Program-made: the position numbers and the translations under genes
The notes under the pieces: generated by a model
Seen by the model: the letters and a program-made list of their open reading frames with translations, nothing else
The model's database searches: none
Told to the model about the DNA's origin: nothing
Origin: Christensenellaceae bacterium OttesenSCG-928-K19
GTDB taxonomy: Bacteria; Bacillota; Clostridia; Christensenellales; Christensenellaceae
DNA: 64,000 nt
Assembly: GCA_030266015.1 (NCBI GenBank)
Contig: JAJDHD010000011.1
Coordinates: 1 to 64,000 of the forward strand
Direction: 5' to 3'
Part shown: positions 31,873 through 56,940 of the stretch, piece by piece
How positions within the stretch are numbered: the first letter of the stretch is position 1
How the letters are laid out: the number at the start of each line of letters is the position of its first letter

Positions 31873-32862
31873 ATGGGCAGACCGGTAACGTTAATGACGG
31901 CACAATGGGGCGATTTGGGCTTTGAGGAGCTGTGTAAGCTGGCAAAGGAAATGGGCTATGACGGGCTGGAGATCACGTGCGGGCCGCACCTGGACACGGA
32001 AAAAGCAGCAAAGGACCAGGGCTATTGCGACGAGATCATTGCTACCATGGCAAAGTATGGGCTGAAGAGCTGGGCGCTGTCGGCGCACATGACAGGACAG
32101 TGCGTGGGAGACAAATGGGATCCGCGGCTGGACGGCTTTGCGCCAAACGCGCTTGCGGGCAAGCCGGAGGAAATCCGCGCGTGGGCCATCCAGGACATGA
32201 AATATGTGGCACAGGCCGCAAAGAACCTGGGGATTGAGGTTGTAACCGGGTTCATGGGGTCGCCTATTTGGGCATATTGGTATTCGTTCCCGCAGACAAC
32301 GGAAGAGATGATAGACGCGGGGTTTGCGGAGATTGTGGAGCTGTGGACGCCCATCTTCGACGAGTTTGACAAATGCGGCGTGAAGTTTGCGCTGGAGGTG
32401 CACCCGACAGAGATCGCGTTTGACTATTACACAGCGGCGCGGCTGCTGGAGGAATTTGACTACAGGGAGACATTGGGGTTCAATTTTGACCCGTCGCATC
32501 TTTTGTGGCAGGGCGTGAACCCGACCATCTTCCTGCGTGACTTCATAGATTTTGTGTACCACGTGCACATGAAGGACGCGGCGGTGACGCTGGACGGCAA
32601 GGCGGGAATATTGGGCTCGTTCATCACGTTTGGCGAAACAGAGCGCGGTTGGAACTTCCGGTCATTGGGGCACGGGGATGTGAACTTTGAGGAGATCATC
32701 CGCGAGCTGAACCAGTACGGGTATGACGGGCCTCTCTCTGTGGAATGGGAAGATAGTGGCATGGAGCGTGTATACGGCGGAACAGAAGCGGCTGCTTTTG
32801 TGCGCAAGGTGGACTTCAAGCCCTCAGACGTTGCCTTTGACAAGGCCATGGCCAACGAGTAA
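31873..32862 (+). CDS. Sugar phosphate isomerase/epimerase-like TIM barrel protein
   Basis: A 329-residue protein of the AP-endonuclease-2 superfamily (IolE/YcjR/DgpC-like). The predicted metal ligands sit on strand ends: Glu in FALEVHPTE, Asp in FNFDPSHLL, His in YHVHMKD and Glu in LSVEWED. Members act on inososes, keto-sugars or 3-keto-glycosides rather than DNA. It is the first gene of the LacI-controlled operon, with a dehydrogenase next, so an oxidised sugar is a likely substrate. The exact reaction is not known. Confidence 0.8.
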   Translation: MGRPVTLMTAQWGDLGFEELCKLAKEMGYDGLEITCGPHLDTEKAAKDQGYCDEIIATMAKYGLKSWALSAHMTGQCVGDKWDPRLDGFAPNALAGKPEEIRAWAIQDMKYVAQAAKNLGIEVVTGFMGSPIWAYWYSFPQTTEEMIDAGFAEIVELWTPIFDEFDKCGVKFALEVHPTEIAFDYYTAARLLEEFDYRETLGFNFDPSHLLWQGVNPTIFLRDFIDFVYHVHMKDAAVTLDGKAGILGSFITFGETERGWNFRSLGHGDVNFEEIIRELNQYGYDGPLSVEWEDSGMERVYGGTEAAAFVRKVDFKPSDVAFDKAMANE

Positions 32863-32910
32863 AAACTTAGTTAATATATTGAACGGTTACAACGGAAGGA
32901 GAAGAGGAAT

Positions 32911-34062
32911 ATGGCAAAGAGGAAACTAAGATATGGCATGATCGGCGGCGGGCCGGGCGCATTTATCGGCGCGGTGCATCGGGCGGCAATCAGGCTGAAT
33001 GATGAGGCGGAGCTTGTTGCGGGATGCTTTTCTAACATTAAAGAAGAGCGCGACCAGGCACTGGAAGAGCTGCAAATTGACGCTGCGCGTAATTATGAAA
33101 CCTATGAAGAGATGGCTGAAAAAGAAGGCGCACGCGAGGACAAGCTGGACTGGGTTGATATCGTGACGCCCAACCGCTTCCATTATCCTGCCGCTAAACT
33201 GTTTTTGGAAAAAGGAATCAATGTGGTTTGCGAAAAACCGCTGGTATTTACTGTGGAAGAAGGCGAAGACCTGAAGCGGATCGCAAAGGAAAATGGCTGC
33301 CTGTTCTGTGTCACTTATACTTACACAGGCCATGTGATGACGCGTGAGGCGCGTCAGCTTGTGCGAGATGGGGTGATTGGCGATATCCGCATGGTGATGG
33401 GTGAATATCCACAGGATTGGCTTTTGGATTCGCTTGATACAATTACGGAAGACAACAAGCCATGGCGCGCGGACCCCGCACTTTCGGGGAGGAGCGCTGT
33501 CGGCGCCGACCTTGGCACACATATCGAAAACTGGGTGGACTATGTGACCGGCCTTAAGATAGACGAGCTTTGCTGTAACCTTGATGCGCTCAGCGAGGGC
33601 GCTGTGCTGGACAACAACTTGGAAGCGCTGATCCGCTTCAAGGGTGGTGCGACAGGTATGTACTGGACGTCGCAGGTGGCGATTGGTTTTGATAATGCCC
33701 TTAAGATTCGCATTTTGGGCTCCAAGGGAACAATTGAATTTGTACAGGAGGAAAACAATTACCTGCGTGTATCTTTAAGAGGCAAGCCGCCGATGATCTA
33801 CAGCCGCGGCTGCGGATACCTGACGGACGAGGCGAAAAAGTATGTGCGCGTACCATGCGGCCATCCAGAGGGGCTTACCGAAGCGTTTGCAAACATCTAC
33901 AAAGATTTTTGCCGGGCATTGCACGACAAGCTTGACGGCAAGCAGGTGAATGAGGACGATTACGGCTATCCCACCATACAAATGGGGATTGACGGCGTGA
34001 ATTTCTTTAACAAGTGTGTGGACAGCTCGGAAGCGGGCGGTACATGGGTGAAGATGGATTAA
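32911..34062 (+). CDS. Gfo/Idh/MocA family oxidoreductase
   Basis: A 383-residue NAD(P)-dependent sugar or cyclitol dehydrogenase. The nucleotide-binding loop GMIGGGPGAFIGAVH is at residues 9-23. The catalytic Lys109 lies in CEKPL, and the usual Asp200/His204 pair is in GADLGTHIENW. It is 48 bases after the TIM-barrel gene with an AAGGAG site. Pairing of such a dehydrogenase with AP-endonuclease-2-fold isomerases is known for inositol catabolism and for 3-keto-glycoside pathways; either is possible here. Confidence 0.87.
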   Translation: MAKRKLRYGMIGGGPGAFIGAVHRAAIRLNDEAELVAGCFSNIKEERDQALEELQIDAARNYETYEEMAEKEGAREDKLDWVDIVTPNRFHYPAAKLFLEKGINVVCEKPLVFTVEEGEDLKRIAKENGCLFCVTYTYTGHVMTREARQLVRDGVIGDIRMVMGEYPQDWLLDSLDTITEDNKPWRADPALSGRSAVGADLGTHIENWVDYVTGLKIDELCCNLDALSEGAVLDNNLEALIRFKGGATGMYWTSQVAIGFDNALKIRILGSKGTIEFVQEENNYLRVSLRGKPPMIYSRGCGYLTDEAKKYVRVPCGHPEGLTEAFANIYKDFCRALHDKLDGKQVNEDDYGYPTIQMGIDGVNFFNKCVDSSEAGGTWVKMD

Positions 34063-34156
34063 ACTAAACACTCTGCACAGGCATGATGATGCGGTGTAAT
34101 AACAGCCGGAAGGGGCAAAATGCTTCTTCCGGCCTTTGAAGCAAAGGAGAGTAATC

Positions 34157-35005
34157 ATGAAATTTGGTATGAATTCATTGGCGTGGCAGTCGCCTTTTTC
34201 TGATCCGATGGGAATGCTGGAAAAAGCGAAAAAATATGGCTGTGATATCTTCGAGATCGCGGCTGAGGACTTTAGCACATTCAGCCCGGACGCGGTGAAC
34301 GATGCGGTTCAAAAAACCGGTATTCCGGTATACACAATATGCGGCGCGTATGGCGACACGCGTGATATTTCTTCGGAGAATCCGGAGTATAGGCAAAACG
34401 CCATCCAATACAACAAGGATATGATAGACCTGTGCGTGAAAATTGGCGCCAAAGTAGTGGCGGGGCCGATGTATTCGGCCGTGGGCAAGGCGCGCCAATG
34501 CAGCGAGGATGAGAAAAAGCAACAGTGGGACTGGGCGGTAGAAAATCTTCGCATTGTGGCGGATTATGCGAATGAAAAGGGTATAAAGCTGGGCATAGAG
34601 CCGCTGAACAGGTTTGAGACAGACTTTATCAATACGGTGGAGCAGGGGCTGGACCTGATTGCGCGTATCGATAAGCCGGGCGTGGGATTTTTGTTGGACA
34701 CATTCCACATGAATATTGAAGAATCCAATATTCCAGCAGCAATCCGCTCGGCAAAAGGAAAGATTTATGATATGCACTGCTGCGCCAACAACCGCGGTAT
34801 TCCGGGCGAGGACAACTTCAATTGGCCGGCGATTGCCGATGCGGTGAAGGATGCGGGATATGACGATTATATCCTGATCGAGTCGTTCACGCCTGATTGC
34901 GTGGAGATTGCTAAGGCGGCGTCCGTATGGCGGCCATTTGCGGAATCGCCTGAGGCGATTGCGGAGAGGGGCATTCCCTTCCTTAAGAAAACATTTACAA
35001 AATAA
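34157..35005 (+). CDS. D-tagatose/D-psicose 3-epimerase-like TIM barrel protein
   Basis: A 282-residue ketose 3-epimerase-family protein. LGIEPLNRFET (catalytic Glu), FLLDTFHMNIEES (Asp and His ligands) and the terminal LIESF Glu match the D-psicose/D-tagatose 3-epimerase branch closely. The start at 34157 follows AAAGGAG by 7 bases; an upstream in-frame start is discounted. It is likely to interconvert C3 epimers of a free ketose in the pathway. The natural substrate is not predictable from sequence alone. Confidence 0.82.
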   Translation: MKFGMNSLAWQSPFSDPMGMLEKAKKYGCDIFEIAAEDFSTFSPDAVNDAVQKTGIPVYTICGAYGDTRDISSENPEYRQNAIQYNKDMIDLCVKIGAKVVAGPMYSAVGKARQCSEDEKKQQWDWAVENLRIVADYANEKGIKLGIEPLNRFETDFINTVEQGLDLIARIDKPGVGFLLDTFHMNIEESNIPAAIRSAKGKIYDMHCCANNRGIPGEDNFNWPAIADAVKDAGYDDYILIESFTPDCVEIAKAASVWRPFAESPEAIAERGIPFLKKTFTK

Positions 35006-35094
35006 AAAACAGATAAAAAACAACCGGGGCTGTGGAACCGCCGCAGCTCCGGAATAGTTTTGCGGCGGGACAATGCTGCGTGGAGGAAAAGAGT

Positions 35095-36582
35095 ATGATG
35101 GGGAAAAATATACCAGAAGTAAAACTTGGGATTATTGCGGTTAGTAGGGATTGTTTTTTAATCTCGCTTTCCGAGCGGCGCAGGGCAGCGCTGATAGAGG
35201 CTTGTGGCAAAAAAGGCATTTCTGCCTTTGAAGCAAAAACAACGGTAGAAAACGAAGTTGATATGATAAAGGCGGTAGAAGAGGTGAACGCCGCAGGGTG
35301 TAACGCTTTGGTAGTGTTTTTGGGCAACTTCGGCCCGGAAACACCCGAAACATTAATTGCGCAGAGGTTTGCCGGGCCGGTGATGTATGCGGCGGCCGCA
35401 GAGGAAACGGGGAAAGACCTGATAGGCGGCAGGGGCGACGCATATTGCGGAATGCTCAATTGCTCCTATAACCTGGGGTTGCGTAAGCTGAAGGCTGTGA
35501 TTCCCGAATACCCTGTGGGAACGGCGGATGATATTGCAAGCATGGTGCTGGATTTTATTCCCGTGGCGCGGGCGCTCATTGGCCTTGCCGGGCTAAAAAT
35601 CATCTCCTTTGGGCCAAGGCCGCAAGATTTCTTTGCGTGCAACGCGCCTATCAAAGCGCTTTATGACATGGGCATAGAAGTGCAGGAGAATTCTGAGCTT
35701 GACCTGCTTGTTGCGTATAAAGCGCACGCGGGAGACAAGCGCATCGACGATGTTGTGGCCGACATGGCAAAGGAGCTGGGCACGGATGGCAACGGTTATC
35801 CCGACCTGCTGCCGCGTATGGCGCAGTTTGAGCTGACACTTCTGGACTGGGCGGAACAAAACAAAGGCGCGCGGGAGTATGTGGCGTTTGCCAACAAATG
35901 CTGGCCCGCGTTCCCCACAGAGTTTGGATTTGAGCCGTGCTATGTAAACAGCCGCCTGGCGTCGCGAGGCATTCCGGTGGGGTGCGAGGTGGACATCTAC
36001 GGCGCGCTTTCCGAGTATATCGGTGCCTGCATCTCGCAAGACGCGGTAACACTGCTGGATATCAACAACACAGTGCCTGCCGACCTGCACGCGGAGGAGA
36101 TCAAGGGCAAATACGACTATGCGCTGACAGACACGTTCATGGGCTTCCATTGCGGCAACACACCATTTTGCAAGCTTAATGGCGGTGCTGTGAAGTACCA
36201 GCTAATCCAGAACCGCCTGATTGAAGACGGTGGCGAGCCTGATGTGACACGGGGCACGCTGGAAGGCGATATCGCACCGGGGAAAATCACATTCTTCCGC
36301 CTGCACAGCAATGCGGACACGTCTTTACAGGCATATGTGGCACAGGGCGAGGTTCTGCCGGTGGCAACGCGCTCGTTTGGCGGCATCGGTATTTTTGCCA
36401 TCCCGGAGATGGGGCGTTTTTACCGTCATGTGCTGATTGCAAAGCATTATCCACATCACGGTGCGGTGGCGTTCAGCCACATTGGCAAGGCGCTTTTCAC
36501 GGTGTTCCAATACCTGGGGGTAGAGGACATTGCCTTCAACCAGCCTGCGGGAATGCTTTATAAAACGGAAAATCCTTTTTAA
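35095..36582 (+). CDS. L-fucose/L-arabinose isomerase family protein
   Basis: A 495-residue sugar isomerase-fold protein, shorter than E. coli FucI (591) and close to AraA (500). Candidate metal ligands are Glu298 in GCEVD, Asp322 in TLLDINN and His462 in AFSHIG. The Glu-Asp spacing of 24 equals Glu337-Asp361 of FucI. The start at 35095 lies 8 bases after GGAGG. It would convert an aldose to a ketose, or act on a related substrate, within the LacI-controlled operon. I do not recognise a characterised orthologue. Confidence 0.78.
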   Translation: MMGKNIPEVKLGIIAVSRDCFLISLSERRRAALIEACGKKGISAFEAKTTVENEVDMIKAVEEVNAAGCNALVVFLGNFGPETPETLIAQRFAGPVMYAAAAEETGKDLIGGRGDAYCGMLNCSYNLGLRKLKAVIPEYPVGTADDIASMVLDFIPVARALIGLAGLKIISFGPRPQDFFACNAPIKALYDMGIEVQENSELDLLVAYKAHAGDKRIDDVVADMAKELGTDGNGYPDLLPRMAQFELTLLDWAEQNKGAREYVAFANKCWPAFPTEFGFEPCYVNSRLASRGIPVGCEVDIYGALSEYIGACISQDAVTLLDINNTVPADLHAEEIKGKYDYALTDTFMGFHCGNTPFCKLNGGAVKYQLIQNRLIEDGGEPDVTRGTLEGDIAPGKITFFRLHSNADTSLQAYVAQGEVLPVATRSFGGIGIFAIPEMGRFYRHVLIAKHYPHHGAVAFSHIGKALFTVFQYLGVEDIAFNQPAGMLYKTENPF

Positions 36583-36597
36583 CAGGAAAGGCAGTAT

Positions 36598-37641
36598 ATG
36601 GCAGTAACGATTAAGCAGGTTGCGGAAGCAGCCGGAGTGTCGCGTGGCACGGTGGACAGGGTGCTTCACAACCGCGGTGGTGTGCGCCAGGAAGTAGCGG
36701 AGCATATACACGAAATAGCGGCGCGGCTGGGGTATTTCCCCAACCGCGCGGGCAAGATGCTGGCCGCGAGAAAGCAGCCGGTGACGATTGGTTATGTTTT
36801 GCCCAGCGTGGGCAATGCTTTTTTCGAGGATGTAAAAAAAGGAATTCATGCGGCGGAGGCGGAAATGCGCGATTTTGGCCTCCGCCTGAAAATTGCGGAG
36901 ATAAAGGGTTTTTACCCGGACAGCCATATCAAAGCGATCCGGGAGATGGTGGCCGATGGCTGCAACGCGCTTTGTGTGACGACGGCAGACACGCCAGAGT
37001 TGCGCAATTGCATTGATGAAGTGGTAGATAGCGGCATTCCGGTTATCACGATTAATACAGACCTCAGCGGCACAAAACGGTTGTGCTATGTGGGCAGCGA
37101 TTATATCAAAGCGGGAGGCACTGCGGCGGGGCTACTGGCTCTCTGCCACAACGCAATGTGTGTTAAGGTGCTGGTTGCCACCGGGTCGCTTGATGTAAAA
37201 GGGCATAACGACCGGATCGCGGGGTTTCGCGATACGCTGGAAAAAAAGAATATCCCATACAGGTTGCTGGATCTTTACGAAACGCAGGACGACAACGAAA
37301 TTGCGTATAGCAAGACAAAAGCAATGCTGAAGGAGCACGAGGACGTCAGCTGCATCTATGCTGTGGGCGCAGGCGTGGAAGGTTTGTGCAAGGCGGTAAG
37401 TGAGCTGCCGACCAAACGAAGGAAAAACCTCAGGGTGCTTTGTTTTGACGATTTTGGCACCATCCGGCAATATGTCAAAAAGGGAATAATTGATTTTGTG
37501 GTTTGCCAGGAGCCGGCGCAGCAGGGATACCAGTCGGTAATAAAGCTGTTTAATTACCTGCTGGACGGCAGCAAGGGCAAGCTGAATAATTACATCACAA
37601 AAGCGGTAATCAAAATTAAAGAGAATATTGAGCGAAATTAG
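36598..37641 (+). CDS. LacI-family transcriptional regulator
   Basis: A 347-residue repressor. The DNA-binding head TIKQVAEAAGVSRGTVDRVLHN has Asp where most LacI proteins have Ser, a variant seen in a Firmicute subfamily. A periplasmic-binding type 1 effector domain follows from about residue 60 (VTIGYVLPSVGNAFFEDV). It is 15 bases after the isomerase gene in the same operon, so probably autoregulated. I infer that it binds GTGCTCGTGCAC at 31404, 31575 and 55326. Confidence 0.9.
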   Translation: MAVTIKQVAEAAGVSRGTVDRVLHNRGGVRQEVAEHIHEIAARLGYFPNRAGKMLAARKQPVTIGYVLPSVGNAFFEDVKKGIHAAEAEMRDFGLRLKIAEIKGFYPDSHIKAIREMVADGCNALCVTTADTPELRNCIDEVVDSGIPVITINTDLSGTKRLCYVGSDYIKAGGTAAGLLALCHNAMCVKVLVATGSLDVKGHNDRIAGFRDTLEKKNIPYRLLDLYETQDDNEIAYSKTKAMLKEHEDVSCIYAVGAGVEGLCKAVSELPTKRRKNLRVLCFDDFGTIRQYVKKGIIDFVVCQEPAQQGYQSVIKLFNYLLDGSKGKLNNYITKAVIKIKENIERN

Positions 37642-38711: not shown

Positions 38712-39599
38712 TTACAGATGCACCTCCAGGTAAGAGCGCAGGTTTACATCGCGCGTAAGCTGTAGCTTCTTGCGGATATTCAACCGATGAAAATCGACTG
38801 CCTTTTGTGTAACACACAGCTTGTCCGCGATCTCCTTGGAGGAGTAGCCTTCCTTGATCAGCGAGGCAACCTGCAGCTCGCGCGGGGTTAGCCCGGCAAT
38901 GGTGGTGCTGCGTTTTTTGGTGATGGGGTAAACAATTTCGTCAATCAGCCCGTTCACCATGTCAACATTCTCTGGATTTACAGTCTTTTTGAGGTATTCC
39001 AGCGACGGCTTAATAAACTTTTCCACATTGGTGCTGATGGTGGTTTCCAGCTCCTCGCTGCTTTGTTTTTTTTGCTGCAAAATATCAGCAAGCAGCTTGT
39101 TCTGGTATTCCAGCGCTTCAAAACGCTGCGCAAGCTCATTCATATTTTCCACCATGCTGTTCTGGAAGGTCACATCGCGTACATATTCCATAATCAGCAC
39201 AATCTCATTTTTGGAATTCAAAACGGGGATGGAAAAGATCTGGTGCCAGTTGCTTTCCCGGCCTTCGCGGTCATAGCGAACCACAGCAGTCTGTGGTTTT
39301 TTGGTTTGCATGCACAACAGGGAGGGGCAGTCCTTACACGGGCTTTTGAGCGAGTGGTAAACATCATAGCACCGCTTGCCAATCGCGTCGCCCTGGTCGG
39401 TATAAATATACCGCATTGTGGCATTCATATATCGGATGTTCAGATCAAGGTCAAGCAGGCTAACGCCATCCTGTATGCTTTCGATAATTGTTTTAAACAA
39501 ACCGGGATTGTCAAAAAAATCCTGCTCGCTTTCGGCGGTAAGCTCGCTTTTTGCCTCGGGTGTAAATAGCCATGCGGCTTTGTTTGCGGGGTCTGTCAT
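38712..39599 (-). CDS. PAS-domain LuxR-type transcriptional regulator
   Basis: A 295-residue cytoplasmic regulator. A PAS domain spans about residues 35-140 (IIESIQDGVSLLDLDLNIRY) with an inserted cysteine cluster (Cys77, 88, 91, 96; CKDCPSLLC). This could bind a metal or Fe-S cluster or sense redox. A coiled stretch follows. The C-terminal LuxR helix-turn-helix (LTPRELQVASLIKEGYSSKEIADKL) ends the protein. No receiver domain, so it senses its ligand directly. It diverges from the flavoprotein gene it probably controls. Confidence 0.85.
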   Translation of the reverse strand: MTDPANKAAWLFTPEAKSELTAESEQDFFDNPGLFKTIIESIQDGVSLLDLDLNIRYMNATMRYIYTDQGDAIGKRCYDVYHSLKSPCKDCPSLLCMQTKKPQTAVVRYDREGRESNWHQIFSIPVLNSKNEIVLIMEYVRDVTFQNSMVENMNELAQRFEALEYQNKLLADILQQKKQSSEELETTISTNVEKFIKPSLEYLKKTVNPENVDMVNGLIDEIVYPITKKRSTTIAGLTPRELQVASLIKEGYSSKEIADKLCVTQKAVDFHRLNIRKKLQLTRDVNLRSYLEVHL

Positions 39600-39629
39600 C
39601 TGGTATTCCTCCTATTTGTGCTGGTATCC

Positions 39630-39658
39630 AGTATAACGCGTAGAAAGCCTTGTGTCAA
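39630..39658 (-). promoter_or_regulatory. Promoter of the PAS-LuxR gene
   Basis: Consensus TTGACA (39653-39658), 17-nt spacer, TATACT (39630-39635) on the minus strand, ahead of AGGAGG. CTGGTA elements at 39600-39605 and 39621-39626 lie in its early transcript. Confidence 0.75.
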
Positions 39659-39702
39659 AAGGAGAATTCAAAAAAATCGATCAACGCAATACCAAGGCAT
39701 AA

Positions 39703-39720
39703 CTGGTAAAATAATACCAG
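39703..39720. promoter_or_regulatory. Inverted repeat, candidate activator site (distal)
   Basis: Perfect CTGGTA-N6-TACCAG, centred about 66 bases upstream of the predicted start of the flavoprotein transcript. CTGGTA recurs in the regulator's own promoter region. Confidence 0.55.
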
Positions 39721-39724
39721 CCAT

Positions 39725-39771
39725 ACACTAGTAATAAACAAGTGTTTTGTTGGGATTGCTACTAGTATAAT
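39725..39771 (+). promoter_or_regulatory. Activator-dependent-looking promoter of the flavoprotein gene
   Basis: Good -10 TATAAT at 39766-39771 but no recognisable -35. An ACACT-N11-AGTGT inverted repeat (39725-39745) is centred near -43, where a class II activator would sit. Confidence 0.5.
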
Positions 39772-39779
39772 ATTGCCAT

Positions 39780-39953
39780 AGAATAGAGTTGTGATGAACA
39801 TTCATTATGTTAGTGGAAGCAACAAATGCTGTATCGAGATAAATATATTACAATCATTTGTTGATGAAGCAATGCAGCTTGCATGATTGTACTGACGGCA
39901 GTCAGGTCGCTGCAACAAATCCATGTCAAAGATAAAAAACGGAGGTCGAAATT
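39780..39953 (+). other. Structured 5' leader of the flavoprotein gene
   Basis: CATTTGTTG at 39855-39863 can pair either with CAACAAATG at 39820-39828 or with CAACAAAT at 39913-39920. The two helices exclude each other. A CTGAC/GTCAG stem lies at 39892-39905. I recognise no known riboswitch class. Confidence 0.4.
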
Positions 39954-41222
39954 ATGAGTCAAGAAGCTTTATTCTCCCCAATAAAGATTGGGAGCAAGAC
40001 TGCGCCAAACCGCATTGTTATCAACTCTATGGAGTGCTGTGATGCGCTGGACAACGGCGATCCAAGCCCAAAAACCTATGAGCGCTATGAAAACCTGTTC
40101 AAAGGACAACCAGGCGTTATTATAGGCGAGGCGATTACCCCCCAGTATGACCATATCTCAAGGGAGCACCAGCTTTCCATAAAAGAGCACAATGTACCCG
40201 CTTTGAAAAAGTTTGTGGCGCATTTAAAGGAAATTAACCCTGACGTCATCTATATGCCGCAGGTTACCCACTCGGGCGAGATCAGTCATCCCCGGTTTTC
40301 CTCGCGTATCCGCGTAACGGAAGAGCCGCTTCCCGGTTATGAGAATTCCACGCTTGTGCGTGAAAAAGAAATAGAGCAGGTAATACAGGATTATGTGGAC
40401 GGTGCACGGCGTTGCTATGAGATCGGCGCGGATGGCGTTGACCTGAAGCTTTGCCATGGTTATCTTGGCACACAGATTCTTCGCCCATACAATAAAGACA
40501 ACTGGAAATATGGCGGCGCATGGGAAAACAGGCGTCAGTTTGCAATCGATGTTTATGATCGTGTGCGCGAGGCGGTTCCGGATGAGAACTTCCTGATCGG
40601 CTCCAAGATTTCTGTGTATGAGGGCTTCCCGGGTGGTGTAGGTACCCTGAACGCGAACAGCGCGTGCATGGATCTTACCGAAACGATAGACCTTGTTCAG
40701 CAGCTTGAAAAGCACGGTATGCAGTGGGTTCTGCAATCGGCAGGTTCACCCTCTCACACGCTCGATCTTGCACATCCTGATAAAAAATCTGCGGACTATG
40801 CGTATATGCACTTCTATTTCCAAAAGGTGCTGCGCGACGCACTGAAGCCTGAAACAGTCGTTATGGGTTCTGGTTATACAATTTACCGTGATGGCAATGT
40901 AAAAGTTGGCGGTAACAAAAAAGCGTTCCAGGCTGTGCTGCCGGAGAATAACTCTGTGCGCTTCTGGGGCAACAAAAACATCAATGACGGTGTTGTAGAC
41001 GCGATTTCGATTGGACGCCAGTCATTTGCCGATCAGTTCACGCCGCAGAAAATGATGGAAAACCGCGACAAAGAGATCAAGTGGTGCACGCTTTGCGACC
41101 ATTGCGTAGAGCTTTTGATCCAGCAATACAATGTAGGTTGTGCAACGTATGATAAGCGTTATACAGAAATCTACAAGCAGATGGTAAAAGAAACGGGCGG
41201 CATCAACGAGAAGCACACCTGA
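39954..41222 (+). CDS. Old-yellow-enzyme-like NADH:flavin oxidoreductase (FMN barrel, short form)
   Basis: A 422-residue FMN-binding TIM barrel that should reduce an activated double bond. The N-terminal LFSPIKIGSKTAPNRIV, the VDLKLCHGYLGTQILRP segment and YGGAWENRRQF fit the 2,4-dienoyl-CoA/enoate reductase branch. The usual HxGR motif is HSGE. A cysteine motif near the C-terminus (Cys378, 381, 384, 396) resembles the Fe-S site of that branch, but the protein ends about 26 residues later, without the FAD/NAD domains. Electrons must come from elsewhere. Substrate unknown. Confidence 0.82.
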   Translation: MSQEALFSPIKIGSKTAPNRIVINSMECCDALDNGDPSPKTYERYENLFKGQPGVIIGEAITPQYDHISREHQLSIKEHNVPALKKFVAHLKEINPDVIYMPQVTHSGEISHPRFSSRIRVTEEPLPGYENSTLVREKEIEQVIQDYVDGARRCYEIGADGVDLKLCHGYLGTQILRPYNKDNWKYGGAWENRRQFAIDVYDRVREAVPDENFLIGSKISVYEGFPGGVGTLNANSACMDLTETIDLVQQLEKHGMQWVLQSAGSPSHTLDLAHPDKKSADYAYMHFYFQKVLRDALKPETVVMGSGYTIYRDGNVKVGGNKKAFQAVLPENNSVRFWGNKNINDGVVDAISIGRQSFADQFTPQKMMENRDKEIKWCTLCDHCVELLIQQYNVGCATYDKRYTEIYKQMVKETGGINEKHT

Positions 41223-41285: not shown

Positions 41286-41323
41286 AAAAAGAGCGGTAGG
41301 GCACAGGCTCTCCCGCTCTTTTT
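41286..41323 (+). terminator. Intrinsic terminator after the flavoprotein gene
   Basis: Perfect 11-bp AAAAAGAGCGG / CCGCTCTTTTT stem followed by Ts. Confidence 0.85.
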
Positions 41324-53144: not shown

Positions 53145-54068
53145 GTGGAATATGAGTTGATTCGTCATGCGGAGGGGACAAACCTCAAGCTGTTTTTGGT
53201 TTCCATCAACCGCCGCGTGACCCATTACCACAGCGATATCGAACTTTTTATGGTTTTGCGGGGGAGCGTGTGGGTGAGCACGGGCAACGAGCGTTACCCG
53301 CTGCAAAGAGATGATATTTTTCTTGCAAACAAATACGAAATGCACAGCCTGAGCCGTGCGGATGACGAAAATGTGCTGCTGGTGGTGCAGTTTGACCCTA
53401 ACAGCTTTAAGCAGTATTTTCCCAAGATTTCCAATATTAAATTTACACAGCGTTTGATTAATGAAAAAACAAACAAGGCATATTGGGGCAGCCTGAATGA
53501 ATGCTTTGGCGGTCTTTTTAGGAGCTACCGCAAAAAATGTGACGGCTACCAGCTGGAAATGATGGGGATTTTGAATCATCTGTTGTTTTCCATGGTGCAG
53601 CACGATGCTTACGTAGAATTGAAAGAAAAAGAGATATCCGCGGAAAAACGCAATATGAAGCGCATCACCCGGATTTTGGATTACCTGCACCAAAACTATA
53701 TGCATCAGGTTACGCTTAAGGCGCTGGCAAAGGAGGAAGGGCTTGATATGTATTACCTTTCCTCGCTGATTAAGAAGCAACTGGGCGTTTCGTTTCAGGA
53801 GTACCTGACCCACCTGCGCGTGGAAAAAGCGCAGCAACTGCTGGCACACACAGATTTGAACCATATGGATATCTGCATGGAGTGCGGGTTTTCTGACTAT
53901 AAATACCTGAACAACTCGTTTATAAAACGAATGGGCTGCCTGCCGGATGAATACCGCCAGAAAAACCGTAAGGCTGCCCGCGTAGAAGAAGAGCAGACAG
54001 AGCAGCACCGGATTATGGATGCGGCGCTTGCAGATGAAATGCTGCGCGAACGGTTTGGCGCGGTATGA
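53145..54068 (+). CDS. AraC-family transcriptional regulator with cupin sensor
   Basis: A 307-residue regulator. An N-terminal cupin (about residues 15-100; HYHSDIELFMVLRG) binds an effector. The C-terminal double helix-turn-helix spans about residues 170-275 (TLKALAKEEGLDMYYLSSLIKKQLG, then MDICMECGFSDYKYLNNSFIK). The start is GTG at 53145, its AAGGG site overlapping the sortase stop. It lies directly upstream of xylA and probably activates it. Confidence 0.87.
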   Translation: MEYELIRHAEGTNLKLFLVSINRRVTHYHSDIELFMVLRGSVWVSTGNERYPLQRDDIFLANKYEMHSLSRADDENVLLVVQFDPNSFKQYFPKISNIKFTQRLINEKTNKAYWGSLNECFGGLFRSYRKKCDGYQLEMMGILNHLLFSMVQHDAYVELKEKEISAEKRNMKRITRILDYLHQNYMHQVTLKALAKEEGLDMYYLSSLIKKQLGVSFQEYLTHLRVEKAQQLLAHTDLNHMDICMECGFSDYKYLNNSFIKRMGCLPDEYRQKNRKAARVEEEQTEQHRIMDAALADEMLRERFGAV

Positions 54069-54121
54069 GTTTCCTTGCGGGAATCCTTAAATAAACCATC
54101 ATAAAACCACAAACATGTCTC

Positions 54122-54148
54122 ATGGAAAGCGGCTATTCATACTATACT
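54122..54148 (+). promoter_or_regulatory. Candidate xylA promoter with operator-like inverted repeat
   Basis: -10 TATACT (54143-54148) with no good -35. A 19-bp imperfect inverted repeat (54122-54140, ATGGAAAGC-G-GCTATTCAT) occupies the -35 region. The arrangement suggests activator dependence or catabolite control. Confidence 0.5.
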
Positions 54149-54209
54149 GTGCACATAACATTCTTTATTTACCACAAAAAAACATTATTTATTTGGAGGG
54201 AATCCAGTT

Positions 54210-55241
54210 ATGGCAAAATTCAGGTTTACGGTAGGCCCGTGGAACGTACACGAGGGGCATGAAACATTTGGCCCGGGCATCCGCCCCAGTATCTCATTTG
54301 AGGACAAGATTAAAAAGTTTGCGGAAATCGGCATGGATGGCGTGCAGTTCCACGATGATGACGCGGTGCCGGATATGAACAACATGACGGAGAAAGCGAT
54401 TATCGACTACGCAAAGGACGTGAAAGCGCTGCTTGATAAAAACGGTCTTTTTGCGGAGTTCGTGGCGCCGCGCCTGTGGTTTGATGCACATACGAATGAC
54501 GGTGGCTACACGGCAAGCCGCAAAGAGGATTATGAATTTGCCATTTGGCGTTCGCTGCGCTCGGTCGATATTGCCAAGGCATTGGGCACAAACAAGGTAC
54601 AGCTTTGGCTGGCGCGCGAGGGTACGCTTTGCGCGGAGGGTAAAAACCCAGTGGAGAAAATCAAACAGATGCGCGACGCGTTTGACACCATTCTAAAGTA
54701 TGACCCGGATGTGCAGATTTTGATTGAGCCCAAGCCAAACGAGCCGATTGACAGAAGCTATGCCGGCACATGCGGACATGCGCTGGCCATGGCGGAGCAG
54801 ACGGTTGACCCATCCCGCGTGGGCGTGTGCATAGAGAGTGCACATTCCATTATGGCTGGGCTGGACGCGGCGAATGATATGGCGTTTGCCATTGCGTGGG
54901 GCAAGCTGTGGGGTGTGCATTTGAATGACCAGAATGGCATCCGCTATGACCAGGACAAAGCGTTTGGCGCGGAGAACCTGCGCGGGGCGTTTAACCAGGT
55001 GAAAGTGCTGTACGAAAACAACTTTGGCGACAAAGGCGAATGCGTGGGGCTTGATGTAAAGACCATGCGCACGCAGTCGGTGGAAGACAGCTACCGCCAT
55101 ATTATCAATAGCAAGCGCGTATTTGAGTTGCTGCTGGAAAAAGTGAAAAAATTCGACTATAAATTCCAGGAGGAATGTGTTCGCGAGCAGAACTTTGAAA
55201 AGCTGGAGATGTATGTGTTGGAGCTTTTGCTCGGCGTGTAG
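54210..55241 (+). CDS. xylA: Xylose isomerase, class I-like, with one metal ligand replaced
   Basis: A 343-residue TIM-barrel isomerase that should convert D-xylose to D-xylulose. Against the Streptomyces enzyme, catalytic His48/Asp51 (QFHDDD), Trp133, Glu173/Lys175 (IEPKPNEP), Glu209/His212 and Asp247/Asp249 (YDQDKAFG) are all in place with identical spacings. The Asp at the position of Streptomyces Asp245, a metal-1 ligand, is His237 (GVHLNDQNG). The protein is shorter than the usual 385 residues, lacking most of the C-terminal arm. Substrate may therefore differ from xylose. Confidence 0.82.
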   Translation: MAKFRFTVGPWNVHEGHETFGPGIRPSISFEDKIKKFAEIGMDGVQFHDDDAVPDMNNMTEKAIIDYAKDVKALLDKNGLFAEFVAPRLWFDAHTNDGGYTASRKEDYEFAIWRSLRSVDIAKALGTNKVQLWLAREGTLCAEGKNPVEKIKQMRDAFDTILKYDPDVQILIEPKPNEPIDRSYAGTCGHALAMAEQTVDPSRVGVCIESAHSIMAGLDAANDMAFAIAWGKLWGVHLNDQNGIRYDQDKAFGAENLRGAFNQVKVLYENNFGDKGECVGLDVKTMRTQSVEDSYRHIINSKRVFELLLEKVKKFDYKFQEECVREQNFEKLEMYVLELLLGV

Positions 55242-55261
55242 CTTTAGCTGTAGAAGCTTTC

Positions 55262-55294
55262 AAAAACCGTTGGGAGTTGTCCCGGCGGTTTTTT
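55262..55294 (+). terminator. Intrinsic terminator after xylA
   Basis: AAAAACCG / CGGTTTTTT stem with an inner GGGA/TCCC, followed by Ts. Confidence 0.8.
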
Positions 55295-55316
55295 ACTGTC
55301 TGTAAAACAGAAGATA

Positions 55317-55345
55317 TTGCTTTTTGTGCTCGTGCACGGTATAAT
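55317..55345 (+). promoter_or_regulatory. Promoter of xylB
   Basis: TTGCTT (55317-55322), 17-nt spacer, TATAAT (55340-55345). The spacer contains the operator. Confidence 0.75.
55326..55337. promoter_or_regulatory. LacI-type operator, site 3 (xylB promoter)
   Basis: GTGCTCGTGCAC, identical over 12 bases to the sites at 31404 and 31575, lying between the -35 and -10 boxes. A bound repressor would block polymerase. Confidence 0.75.
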
Positions 55346-55416
55346 GTGGGCGTAGCATTTTTTCGGACAATTTTCATAGATTTTCATGTAATTATAAAAA
55401 ACCAGGAGGCAAGGAT

Positions 55417-56940
55417 ATGAGTTATTTAATCGGCGTGGATATTGGTACTTCGGGCACCAAAACCGTATTGTTTGATGACAGGGGAGGCGTTGTTGCTTCA
55501 CATACCGTAGAGTATGAAATGTACCAGCCCAAAAACGGCTGGGCGGAGCAAAACCCCGAGGACTGGTGGAACGCCACGCTGGATACGCTCCGGGCGGTGA
55601 TTTCCAAAAGCGGCGTGAGCGCGGGCGATATCAAGGGCATTGGCCTTTCCGGGCAAATGCATGGCCTTGTGCTGCTGGATAAAGAAGGCAATGTGCTGCG
55701 CCCGTCTATCATCTGGTGCGACGGCCGCACGGTTGCGGAGTGTGACGAGATTACCTCTACGATTGGCAAGGACAGGCTGATAGAGATCAGCGCGAATCCG
55801 GCGCTGCCCGGTTTTACCGCAGGCAAAATATTGTGGGTGCGCAAAAACGAGCCGCAGATTTGGGAGAAGGCGGCACACATTTTACTGCCCAAGGACTATA
55901 TCCGCTATAAGCTGACCGGCGAATTTGCCACAGAGGTGAGCGACGCGTCCGGCATGAACCTGCTGGACGTGCCAAAGCGCCAGTGGTCGGAAGAGATACT
56001 GCAAAAGCTGCAAATAGACAAAGCGATGCTGCCTAAGATGTATGAATCCTGCGAGGTGACAGGCAATGTGTCCGGTGCAGTTGCGGATAAGACAGGCTTG
56101 ACTGCGGGCACGCCTGTTGTGGGTGGCGCGGGCGATAACGCGGCTGCGGCCGTGGGCACCGGTGTTGTGAAAACGGGCAAAGCGTTTACCACTATTGGCA
56201 CATCCGGCGTTATTTTTGCGCACGCGGATGAAGTGAGCATTGACCCGGGTGGGCGCGTGCACACGTTCTGCCATGCCGTTCCCGGCAAGTGGACGGTGAT
56301 GAGCTGCACGCTTGCGGCCGGCCTTTCGTTAAAGTGGTTCCGCGACCAGTTTTGCACGGCGGAAATGGAGACCGCAAAAGGCATGGGCAAAGACCCATAT
56401 GAGCTGATGAACGAGCAGATAGACCGCCTGCCTATTGGCGCGAATAAGCTGATTTACCTGCCGTATTTGATGGGTGAGCGTTCCCCCTTGCTTGACGCGG
56501 ATGCGCGCGGCGTGTTCTTTGGTCTTTCAGCCATTCACACAAAATACGACATGATGCGTGCCGTGATGGAGGGCGTGACATATTCACAGCGCAACTGTCT
56601 TGATGTGTTCCGCGAGATGGGCGTTTCCTTCAGCGAGATGATGGCGACGGGCGGTGGCGGCAGAAGCGCCGTGTGGCGGCAGATGCTGGCAGATGTATAT
56701 GACTGTGATGTGAGCACGCTCCAATCCAAGGAAGGCCCTGCGCTGGGTGTGGCCATTCTTGCAGGCGTGGGCGCGGGCGTATACGGCAGCGTGCCCGAGG
56801 GCTGCGACGCGGTGGTGAAAAAGGATTCCGTGCAAAAGCCGATAAACGGCAACCTGGCGGAATACGAGAAATACTATAAACTGTATTTGAAGCTGTATCA
56901 GGATTTGAAAGCTGATTTTAAAACGTTGGCGCAAATATAG
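55417..56940 (+). CDS. xylB: Xylulokinase
   Basis: A 507-residue FGGY-family kinase that makes D-xylulose-5-phosphate. Family signatures are YLIGVDIGTSGTKTVLFD at the start, GLSGQMHGLVLLD and the catalytic Asp in GGAGDNAAAAVG. ATP-binding glycines are in MATGGGGRSAVWRQML. AGGAGG precedes the ATG. It has its own promoter and terminator, separate from xylA, and shares the LacI-type operator with the 31-38 kb sugar cluster. Confidence 0.93.
   Translation: MSYLIGVDIGTSGTKTVLFDDRGGVVASHTVEYEMYQPKNGWAEQNPEDWWNATLDTLRAVISKSGVSAGDIKGIGLSGQMHGLVLLDKEGNVLRPSIIWCDGRTVAECDEITSTIGKDRLIEISANPALPGFTAGKILWVRKNEPQIWEKAAHILLPKDYIRYKLTGEFATEVSDASGMNLLDVPKRQWSEEILQKLQIDKAMLPKMYESCEVTGNVSGAVADKTGLTAGTPVVGGAGDNAAAAVGTGVVKTGKAFTTIGTSGVIFAHADEVSIDPGGRVHTFCHAVPGKWTVMSCTLAAGLSLKWFRDQFCTAEMETAKGMGKDPYELMNEQIDRLPIGANKLIYLPYLMGERSPLLDADARGVFFGLSAIHTKYDMMRAVMEGVTYSQRNCLDVFREMGVSFSEMMATGGGGRSAVWRQMLADVYDCDVSTLQSKEGPALGVAILAGVGAGVYGSVPEGCDAVVKKDSVQKPINGNLAEYEKYYKLYLKLYQDLKADFKTLAQI

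Follow-up and report, generated by a model that had tools for sequence, protein, structure and literature searches.

A 19-bp palindrome accompanies a PAS-LuxR regulator at flavoenzyme promoters and is a candidate activator site in a Christensenellaceae genome

We analyzed a 64,000-nucleotide stretch of the genome of Christensenellaceae bacterium OttesenSCG-928-K19 (assembly GCA_030266015.1, contig JAJDHD010000011.1, positions 1 to 64,000; hereafter "the window"), in which the gene for a LuxR-type regulator with a PAS domain, on the minus strand, and the gene for a flavoprotein related to old yellow enzyme, on the plus strand, diverge from a 354-bp intergenic region (Table 1). The contig is C13 of genome G000, an assembly of 2.63 Mb that is 72% complete. 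The regulator matches PAS_4 (44.5 bits; cut-off 23.1) and then the GerE helix-turn-helix (HTH) domain (48.7 bits; cut-off 23.5) without a receiver domain, which places it in the PAS-LuxR one-component class; three of its homologues, also scanned with Pfam, agree with this. The Pfam scan of the regulator gave no match to the autoinducer-binding domain of acyl-homoserine-lactone-type LuxR proteins at E-values up to 0.001. The flavoenzyme matches Oxidored_FMN (PF00724) with 100.8 bits against a cut-off of 27, covering profile positions 2–248 of 342 only, and its likeness to the flavin mononucleotide (FMN) barrel is limited to the first ~240 residues. Domains and coordinates therefore bear out a preliminary description of the window, in which a PAS-LuxR regulator faced an old-yellow-enzyme gene.

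Regulator and flavoenzyme genes occur together at eight loci: the window, G021, G031, G054, G075, G331, G353 and one Treponema contig (L006). We counted G031, G054 and G075 as one lineage, giving six independent lineages. The seven other regulators are 33–52% identical to that of the window. The two genes are divergent in the window, G031, G054, G075 and Treponema; in G021 and G331 the regulator gene lies upstream of the flavoenzyme gene in tandem, and in G353 it lies in the same cluster, several genes away. A profile of the regulator searched against 398 genomes of the phylum matched the window's genome alone, and a search of plasmids found no regulator. We found no description of the regulator, the operator or the short enzyme family in the literature covered, which left subscription journals mostly out of scope.

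Comparison of the window with its seven relatives showed that a palindrome of 19 bp, TACYAGK-N5-MCTRGTA, precedes the flavoenzyme gene. Two such 19-mers stand in tandem in the window and two copies overlap in G331; the remaining sites are TACTAGT-TTTGC-ACTGGTA (G054 and G075), TACTAGT-TTTAT-ACTGGTA (G031), TACTAGG-TATTG-CCTAGTA (G021), CACTAGG-TTTTC-CTTAGTA (G353) and CACCAGG-AGTAT-ACTGGTA (Treponema). All eight regulator-linked promoters have a site with 12–14 of the 14 specified bases, which was equalled by 0–3 of 1000 dinucleotide shuffles per region, and the site stands at the enzyme promoter even where the regulator gene is non-adjacent (G353) or in tandem (G021, G331). By contrast, the 19-mer is absent (≤10 of 14 bases) at all 11 promoters of the enzyme family that have no linked regulator. 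These include second copies in G000, G021, G031, G054 and G075 (the last represented by 130 bp only) and the promoter in G094, a genome with an enzyme cluster like that of the window and no regulator, where 898 of 1000 shuffles do as well as the best match. In the intergenic region of the window we counted four CTGGTA/TACCAG hexamers (shuffle mean 0.11), or seven if CTRGTA/TACYAG are admitted, and neither number was reached in 2000 shuffles. The operator resembles the heptamer sites of NarL/NarP, which we take to be TACYYMT in a 7-2-7 arrangement, in being an inverted repeat whose half-sites start with TACY; it differs from them in its half-site, TACYAGK, and in its spacer of 5 rather than 2.

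A matrix trained on the window, G054 and Treponema was matched by 1 (G021), 1 (G331) and 3 (G353) of 500 shuffles of the held-out regions. Conversely, training on G021, G331 and G353 gave 0 of 500 for the window, G054, G075 and G031, and 13 of 500 for Treponema. Across nine whole genomes, the exact pattern TACYAG-N7-CTRGTA occurs six times, five of them at the flavoenzyme promoter (one each in G000, G021, G031, G054 and G075), and there are no exact matches in G094, G187, G331 or G353; in G331, two single-mismatch sites lie at the flavoenzyme promoter. A one-mismatch control pattern was commoner than the real one in eight of the nine genomes and equally common in G021. The loose pattern alone is therefore uninformative, and it is place and conservation that carry the argument.

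These observations bear on whether some other transcription factor binds the 19-mer while the PAS-LuxR protein controls something else. The site and the regulator are tied together by sequence, and the separation of the two in G353 leaves room for another factor; however, the site tracks the regulator (8 of 8 linked against 0 of 11 unlinked promoters), and a search that had no positive control found no regulator at E-values up to 1e-15 in seven genomes that lack a linked one, the enzyme family being present in six of them. We consider a different binding factor quite improbable, and infer that the site is bound by this regulator.

The preliminary description had paired the half-sites differently, taking CTGGTA-N6-TACCAG (39703–39720) and ACACT-N11-AGTGT (39725–39745) as the operators and a cluster of four PAS cysteines (Cys77, Cys88, Cys91 and Cys96) as a possible sensor of an electrophile, a metal or redox state. 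Both repeats and its TATAAT box are present at those places, CTGGTA recurs near the regulator's promoter (at 39600 and 39621), and the exact CTGGTA-N6-TACCAG is unique in the genome. The other seven promoters, however, share the 7-5-7 form, under which the first repeat consists of the right half of site 1 and the left half of site 2, and the second of the right part of site 2 and a probable chance partner. As palindromes they are no more than chance provides: allowing spacers up to 12, the region has one perfect inverted repeat with arms of 6 bases, whereas shuffles average 1.5 and 269 of 400 have at least one. For arms of 5 bases the number is 10, against a mean of 5.5, and 38 of 400 shuffles reach it. 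The four cysteines are the only ones before the HTH, and Cys77, Cys88 and Cys91 are, like His82, invariant in all eight regulators. Cys96 is private to the window's regulator, however, and unrelated proteins of G187, G331 and G449, phosphatase- or kinase-like as judged by eye, also carry C...C-x2-C in their PAS domains, without the histidine. The cluster is therefore not specific evidence for an electrophile of this enzyme; the three cysteines mark a broad PAS subtype, to which only His82 might add specificity. We regard the N6 and N11 operators with a four-cysteine sensor as very improbable.

The closest solved relatives of the PAS profile are LOV domains, with weak E-values (2e-4 and worse), and Cys77 aligned with the LOV cysteine of one solved blue-light photoreceptor. 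The regulator has GKRCYDVYH at this position, which does not fit what we take to be the LOV flavin-binding signature, GxNCRFLQ. Its cysteine spacing likewise differs from C-x2-C-x11-C-x2-C, presumably the pattern of NreB-type [4Fe-4S] PAS domains. The HTH matches NarL, VraR and EL222 (3p7n, 8a5r) in the PDB. EL222, a LOV-HTH protein, shares with the regulator a sensor domain and a C-terminal GerE HTH; unlike it, the regulator has a PAS domain without the LOV flavin signature (CYDVYH against NCRFLQ).

The distance from the operator to the flavoenzyme promoter is also conserved. A TTG lies exactly at +22 from the operator end in the window, G031, G054, G075, G353 and Treponema, corresponding to four of the six independent lineages, a −10-like hexamer lies at +44/+45 in five of the six, and the joint promoter score was equalled by none of 2000 shuffles. 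The promoter of the window had been described as having a good −10 but no −35; the conserved phasing instead supplies a −35, TTGCTA, 17 bp before TAGAAT. We set aside the TATAAT of the preliminary description as the −10, since the phasing common to the loci puts this box 13 bp further downstream; the TATAAT may represent a second start. At all eight loci the 19-mer ends 18–22 bp upstream of the predicted −35 and overlaps neither box, an arrangement of the class-I activator type, with the operator upstream of the −35 in fixed phase and the start sites predicted. Relative to the predicted start, the operator would be centered at about −67, as is typical of upstream activator sites. Conservation of the sites at eight loci, their presence with and absence without the regulator, and their fixed phase to the promoter make it very probable that the regulator binds, at an activator position, half-sites of the CTGGTA type ahead of the flavoenzyme gene. 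This much of the earlier proposal stands; its pairing of half-sites (6-6-6 rather than 7-5-7) and its promoter do not.

Table 1. Predicted features of the regulator–flavoenzyme locus (window coordinates)
Feature	Position	Strand	Basis
PAS-LuxR (GerE HTH) one-component regulator, 295 aa (P0001)	38712..39599	-	PAS_4 and GerE domains; homologues at 7 other loci
Two direct TACCAG half-sites flanking the regulator's ribosome-binding site	39600..39626 (39600-39605, 39621-39626)	-	Sequence
Operator site 1, TACCAAG-GCATA-ACTGGTA	39690..39708	.	Promoter comparison
Operator site 2, TACCAGC-CATAC-ACTAGTA	39715..39733	.	Promoter comparison; ends 22 bp before conserved -35
Predicted -35, TTGCTA	39756..39761	+	Offset +22 from site 2 end, as in three of the five remaining independent lineages; 0/2000 shuffles
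Extra TACTAGTA half-site within the core promoter	39760..39767	.	Same octamer between operator and -10 in G021
TATAAT, -10 of the preliminary description	39766..39771	+	Off the conserved offset
Predicted -10, TAGAAT	39779..39784	+	Offset +45; 17 bp after -35
Flavoenzyme ribosome-binding site, GGAGG	39941..39945	+	Read from sequence
Old-yellow-enzyme-related FMN/[4Fe-4S] flavoprotein (cluster inferred), 422 aa (P0002), without NAD(P)H domain	39954..41222	+	Oxidored_FMN, Cys motif, NCR (6qkg) profile match
Terminator-like hairpin with T run, 3' of flavoenzyme gene	41286..41323	+	Judged by eye

If the regulator were instead a repressor, it would occupy sites on or close to the promoter and block transcription until released by a ligand. 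The extra TACTAGTA half-site between the −35 and the −10 of the window, with its counterpart in G021, would suit such a role, as would the half-sites that flank the regulator's own ribosome-binding site; but the 19-mer is clear of both promoter boxes at every locus, and most of the eight promoters are weak matches to the consensus, as expected under activation. Repression therefore seems unlikely to us. The half-sites near the regulator start point to possible autoregulation; the Treponema locus has one TACCAG near its regulator start, and the G054 group has none at the corresponding place.

The sixth exact match to the operator pattern, in G031, lies upstream of a URO-D-family gene situated between dnaN-like and recF-like genes (L067 / L100, G031:C1:909253-909271; genes judged by eye). 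This site was found by pattern alone, and TTGTAA-17-TATATT starts at +22 from it (joint score 9; read from sequence); a 14-mer, TTTTGTTGGGATTG, is common to this site and the window at the same offset. The URO-D-family gene is thus a possible second target of the regulator in G031. Thirty single-mismatch sites in G021, G031, G054, G075, G331 and G353 were also considered as targets and treated as chance, with a TTG at +22 in 3 of 60 orientations and a best joint score of 8; matches in G094 and G187, which have no regulator, were left out of this test. A single-mismatch site in the window's own genome (C47, before a LUD-domain gene) was rejected, having no TTG at +22.

The flavoenzyme carries the motif C378-x2-C381-x2-C384-x11-C396 (CxxCxxCx11C), which is invariant in 11 of 11 family members compared, and ends 26 residues past the fourth cysteine, with C-terminal nucleotide-binding domains absent. 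His168 and Tyr170 are retained, and Lys165, invariant in 11 of 11, replaces the first active-site histidine (IHAAHGY of 3gr7 aligns with LKLCHGY). The enzyme thereby lacks the catalytic pair of old yellow enzymes, which we take to be His/His or His/Asn, holding the substrate carbonyl. Profile comparison matched NCR (6qkg) in both the barrel and the cluster region, and histamine and trimethylamine dehydrogenases in two stretches. The order of an FMN barrel and a four-cysteine motif is that of the group of trimethylamine dehydrogenase, 2,4-dienoyl-CoA reductase, NCR and BaiCD, from which the flavoenzyme differs in its length of only 422 residues, in having no nucleotide-binding domains and in having Lys165 in place of the first active-site histidine of YqjM-type enzymes. 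Stopping as it does after the cysteine motif, it has no counterpart of the NAD(P)H portion found in the dienoyl-CoA reductase group. With the classical old yellow enzymes (YqjM, TepOYE-type and pentaerythritol tetranitrate reductase) it shares the N-terminal FMN barrel, His168 and Tyr170, and it differs from them in the invariant Lys165, the extra Fe-S motif and a similarity that fades after about residue 240. Scores fell far below the NCBIfam cut-offs for BaiCD (76.9 of 825 bits), bilirubin reductase (77.8 of 425) and mycofactocin old yellow enzyme (107.8 of 793.15). The bile-acid-type substrate suggested earlier finds no support in the BaiCD score; four of nine loci, described below, lie in sugar-catabolism gene sets.

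A ferredoxin gene lies directly downstream of the flavoenzyme gene, on the same strand, at five of the eight loci (G031, G054, G075, G331 and G353). It would encode a protein of 55–57 residues from the most likely ATG, of the 2x4Fe-4S type (three of the five were Pfam-scanned). The cysteine motif suggests a [4Fe-4S] cluster in the flavoenzyme, and ferredoxin would be its electron partner.

Our preferred interpretation, which we judge fairly probable, gives the PAS-LuxR protein the role of a one-component activator that controls a ferredoxin-linked flavoenzyme through the 19-bp operator. It would work in the cytoplasm and serve essentially one promoter: on detection of a signal by the PAS domain, the regulator on the palindrome would recruit RNA polymerase to the weak TTGnnn-17-TAnnnT flavoenzyme promoter, and the product, a stand-alone FMN/[4Fe-4S] reductase, would exchange electrons with ferredoxin through its cluster instead of using an NAD(P)H domain of its own. 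Several observations weigh against this interpretation. The nearer operator of G331 is 4 bp out of the common phase, G021 has TAG instead of TTG at +22, and the single-mismatch sites, taken as controls in both orientations, also gave a TTG at +22 in 3 of 60 cases. The 7-5-7 form was chosen after all eight regions had been viewed, and the held-out tests were not spacing-blind. There is no ferredoxin gene behind the flavoenzyme gene in the window, G021 or the Treponema contig. Finally, predicted structures of the regulator and flavoenzyme had mean predicted local distance difference test scores of 41.6 and 47.0, unusable for a metal or active site.

Under the activator interpretation, what began as a guess about palindromes is now a defined candidate operator and promoter, linking an uncharacterized PAS sensor to an uncharacterized short Fe-S flavoenzyme family. 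Since the operator goes with the regulator even in distant genomes, the latter could be used to find the inducer, which would in turn point to the substrate. In a broader scenario, which we put forward tentatively and think unlikely as a whole, the regulator, operator, flavoenzyme and often ferredoxin would form a mobile cassette controlling a new subfamily of NAD(P)H-independent, Lys-for-His reductases. Fermentation electrons delivered by ferredoxin would reduce an enone arising from 3-keto-glycoside breakdown of plant glycosides or sugars, providing an electron sink in gut-type anaerobes that is switched on by a C-x4-H-x5-C-x2-C PAS site sensing the enone.

The enzymes linked to a PAS-LuxR regulator fall on three branches of the family tree: the group of the window, G353, G331 and G054; Treponema, beside the enzyme of G094; and G021. 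This spread is consistent with a regulator that was transferred or repeatedly lost. The Treponema flavoenzyme (L006) groups with that of G094 (L011), a genome of the window's own family, with support of 100/99, which is probably the result of gene transfer between distant bacteria.

The window locus is flanked by Gfo/Idh, xylose-isomerase-like, epimerase-like, L-fucose-isomerase-C and LacI genes. G094 has a similar gene set around its enzyme gene, and Gfo/Idh-like and isomerase-like genes lie near the flavoenzyme in G021 and G353 (mostly judged by eye), so that four of nine closely inspected loci have a sugar-catabolism setting, including that of G094 without the regulator. No such sugar genes were found near the loci of G031, G054, G075 and G331, which rules out a purely sugar-linked function as the general role. 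For some loci, one may reasonably guess at an enone derived from a sugar or glycoside as the substrate. A known parallel is glycoside catabolism of the Gfo/Idh/MocA plus isomerase type, as with DgpA of Dorea (PMC11239390). The window, G021, G094 and G353 share with it the Gfo/Idh-like and xylose-isomerase-like TIM-barrel genes near the flavoenzyme; as differences, we found no flavoenzyme of this kind tied to those pathways, and the loci of G031, G054, G075 and G331 have no such genes.

By eye, the counterparts in G094 of the sugar genes at 31873–37641 and 53145–56940 of the window make up a single uninterrupted cluster with the flavoenzyme gene inside it, as if the sugar cluster of the window had been split. 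The sugar clusters also contain a family of ~400-residue proteins (L037:5735-6937, L038:16438-17670, L043:5350-6594); none of these three members matches Pfam, and the single one compared with NCBIfam had no match there either. The second flavoenzyme copy of the window's own genome (L043, G000:C51), which is 49% identical, has neither an operator nor a linked regulator and follows a RuBisCO-large-chain-like gene (PF00016) and an amidohydrolase-like gene (judged by eye). A second branch of flavoenzymes (L039, L040, L042, L045 and L048) stands beside DeoR-like regulators, sugar kinases and aldolase-like genes, again by eye, suggesting a sugar-related role for this branch.

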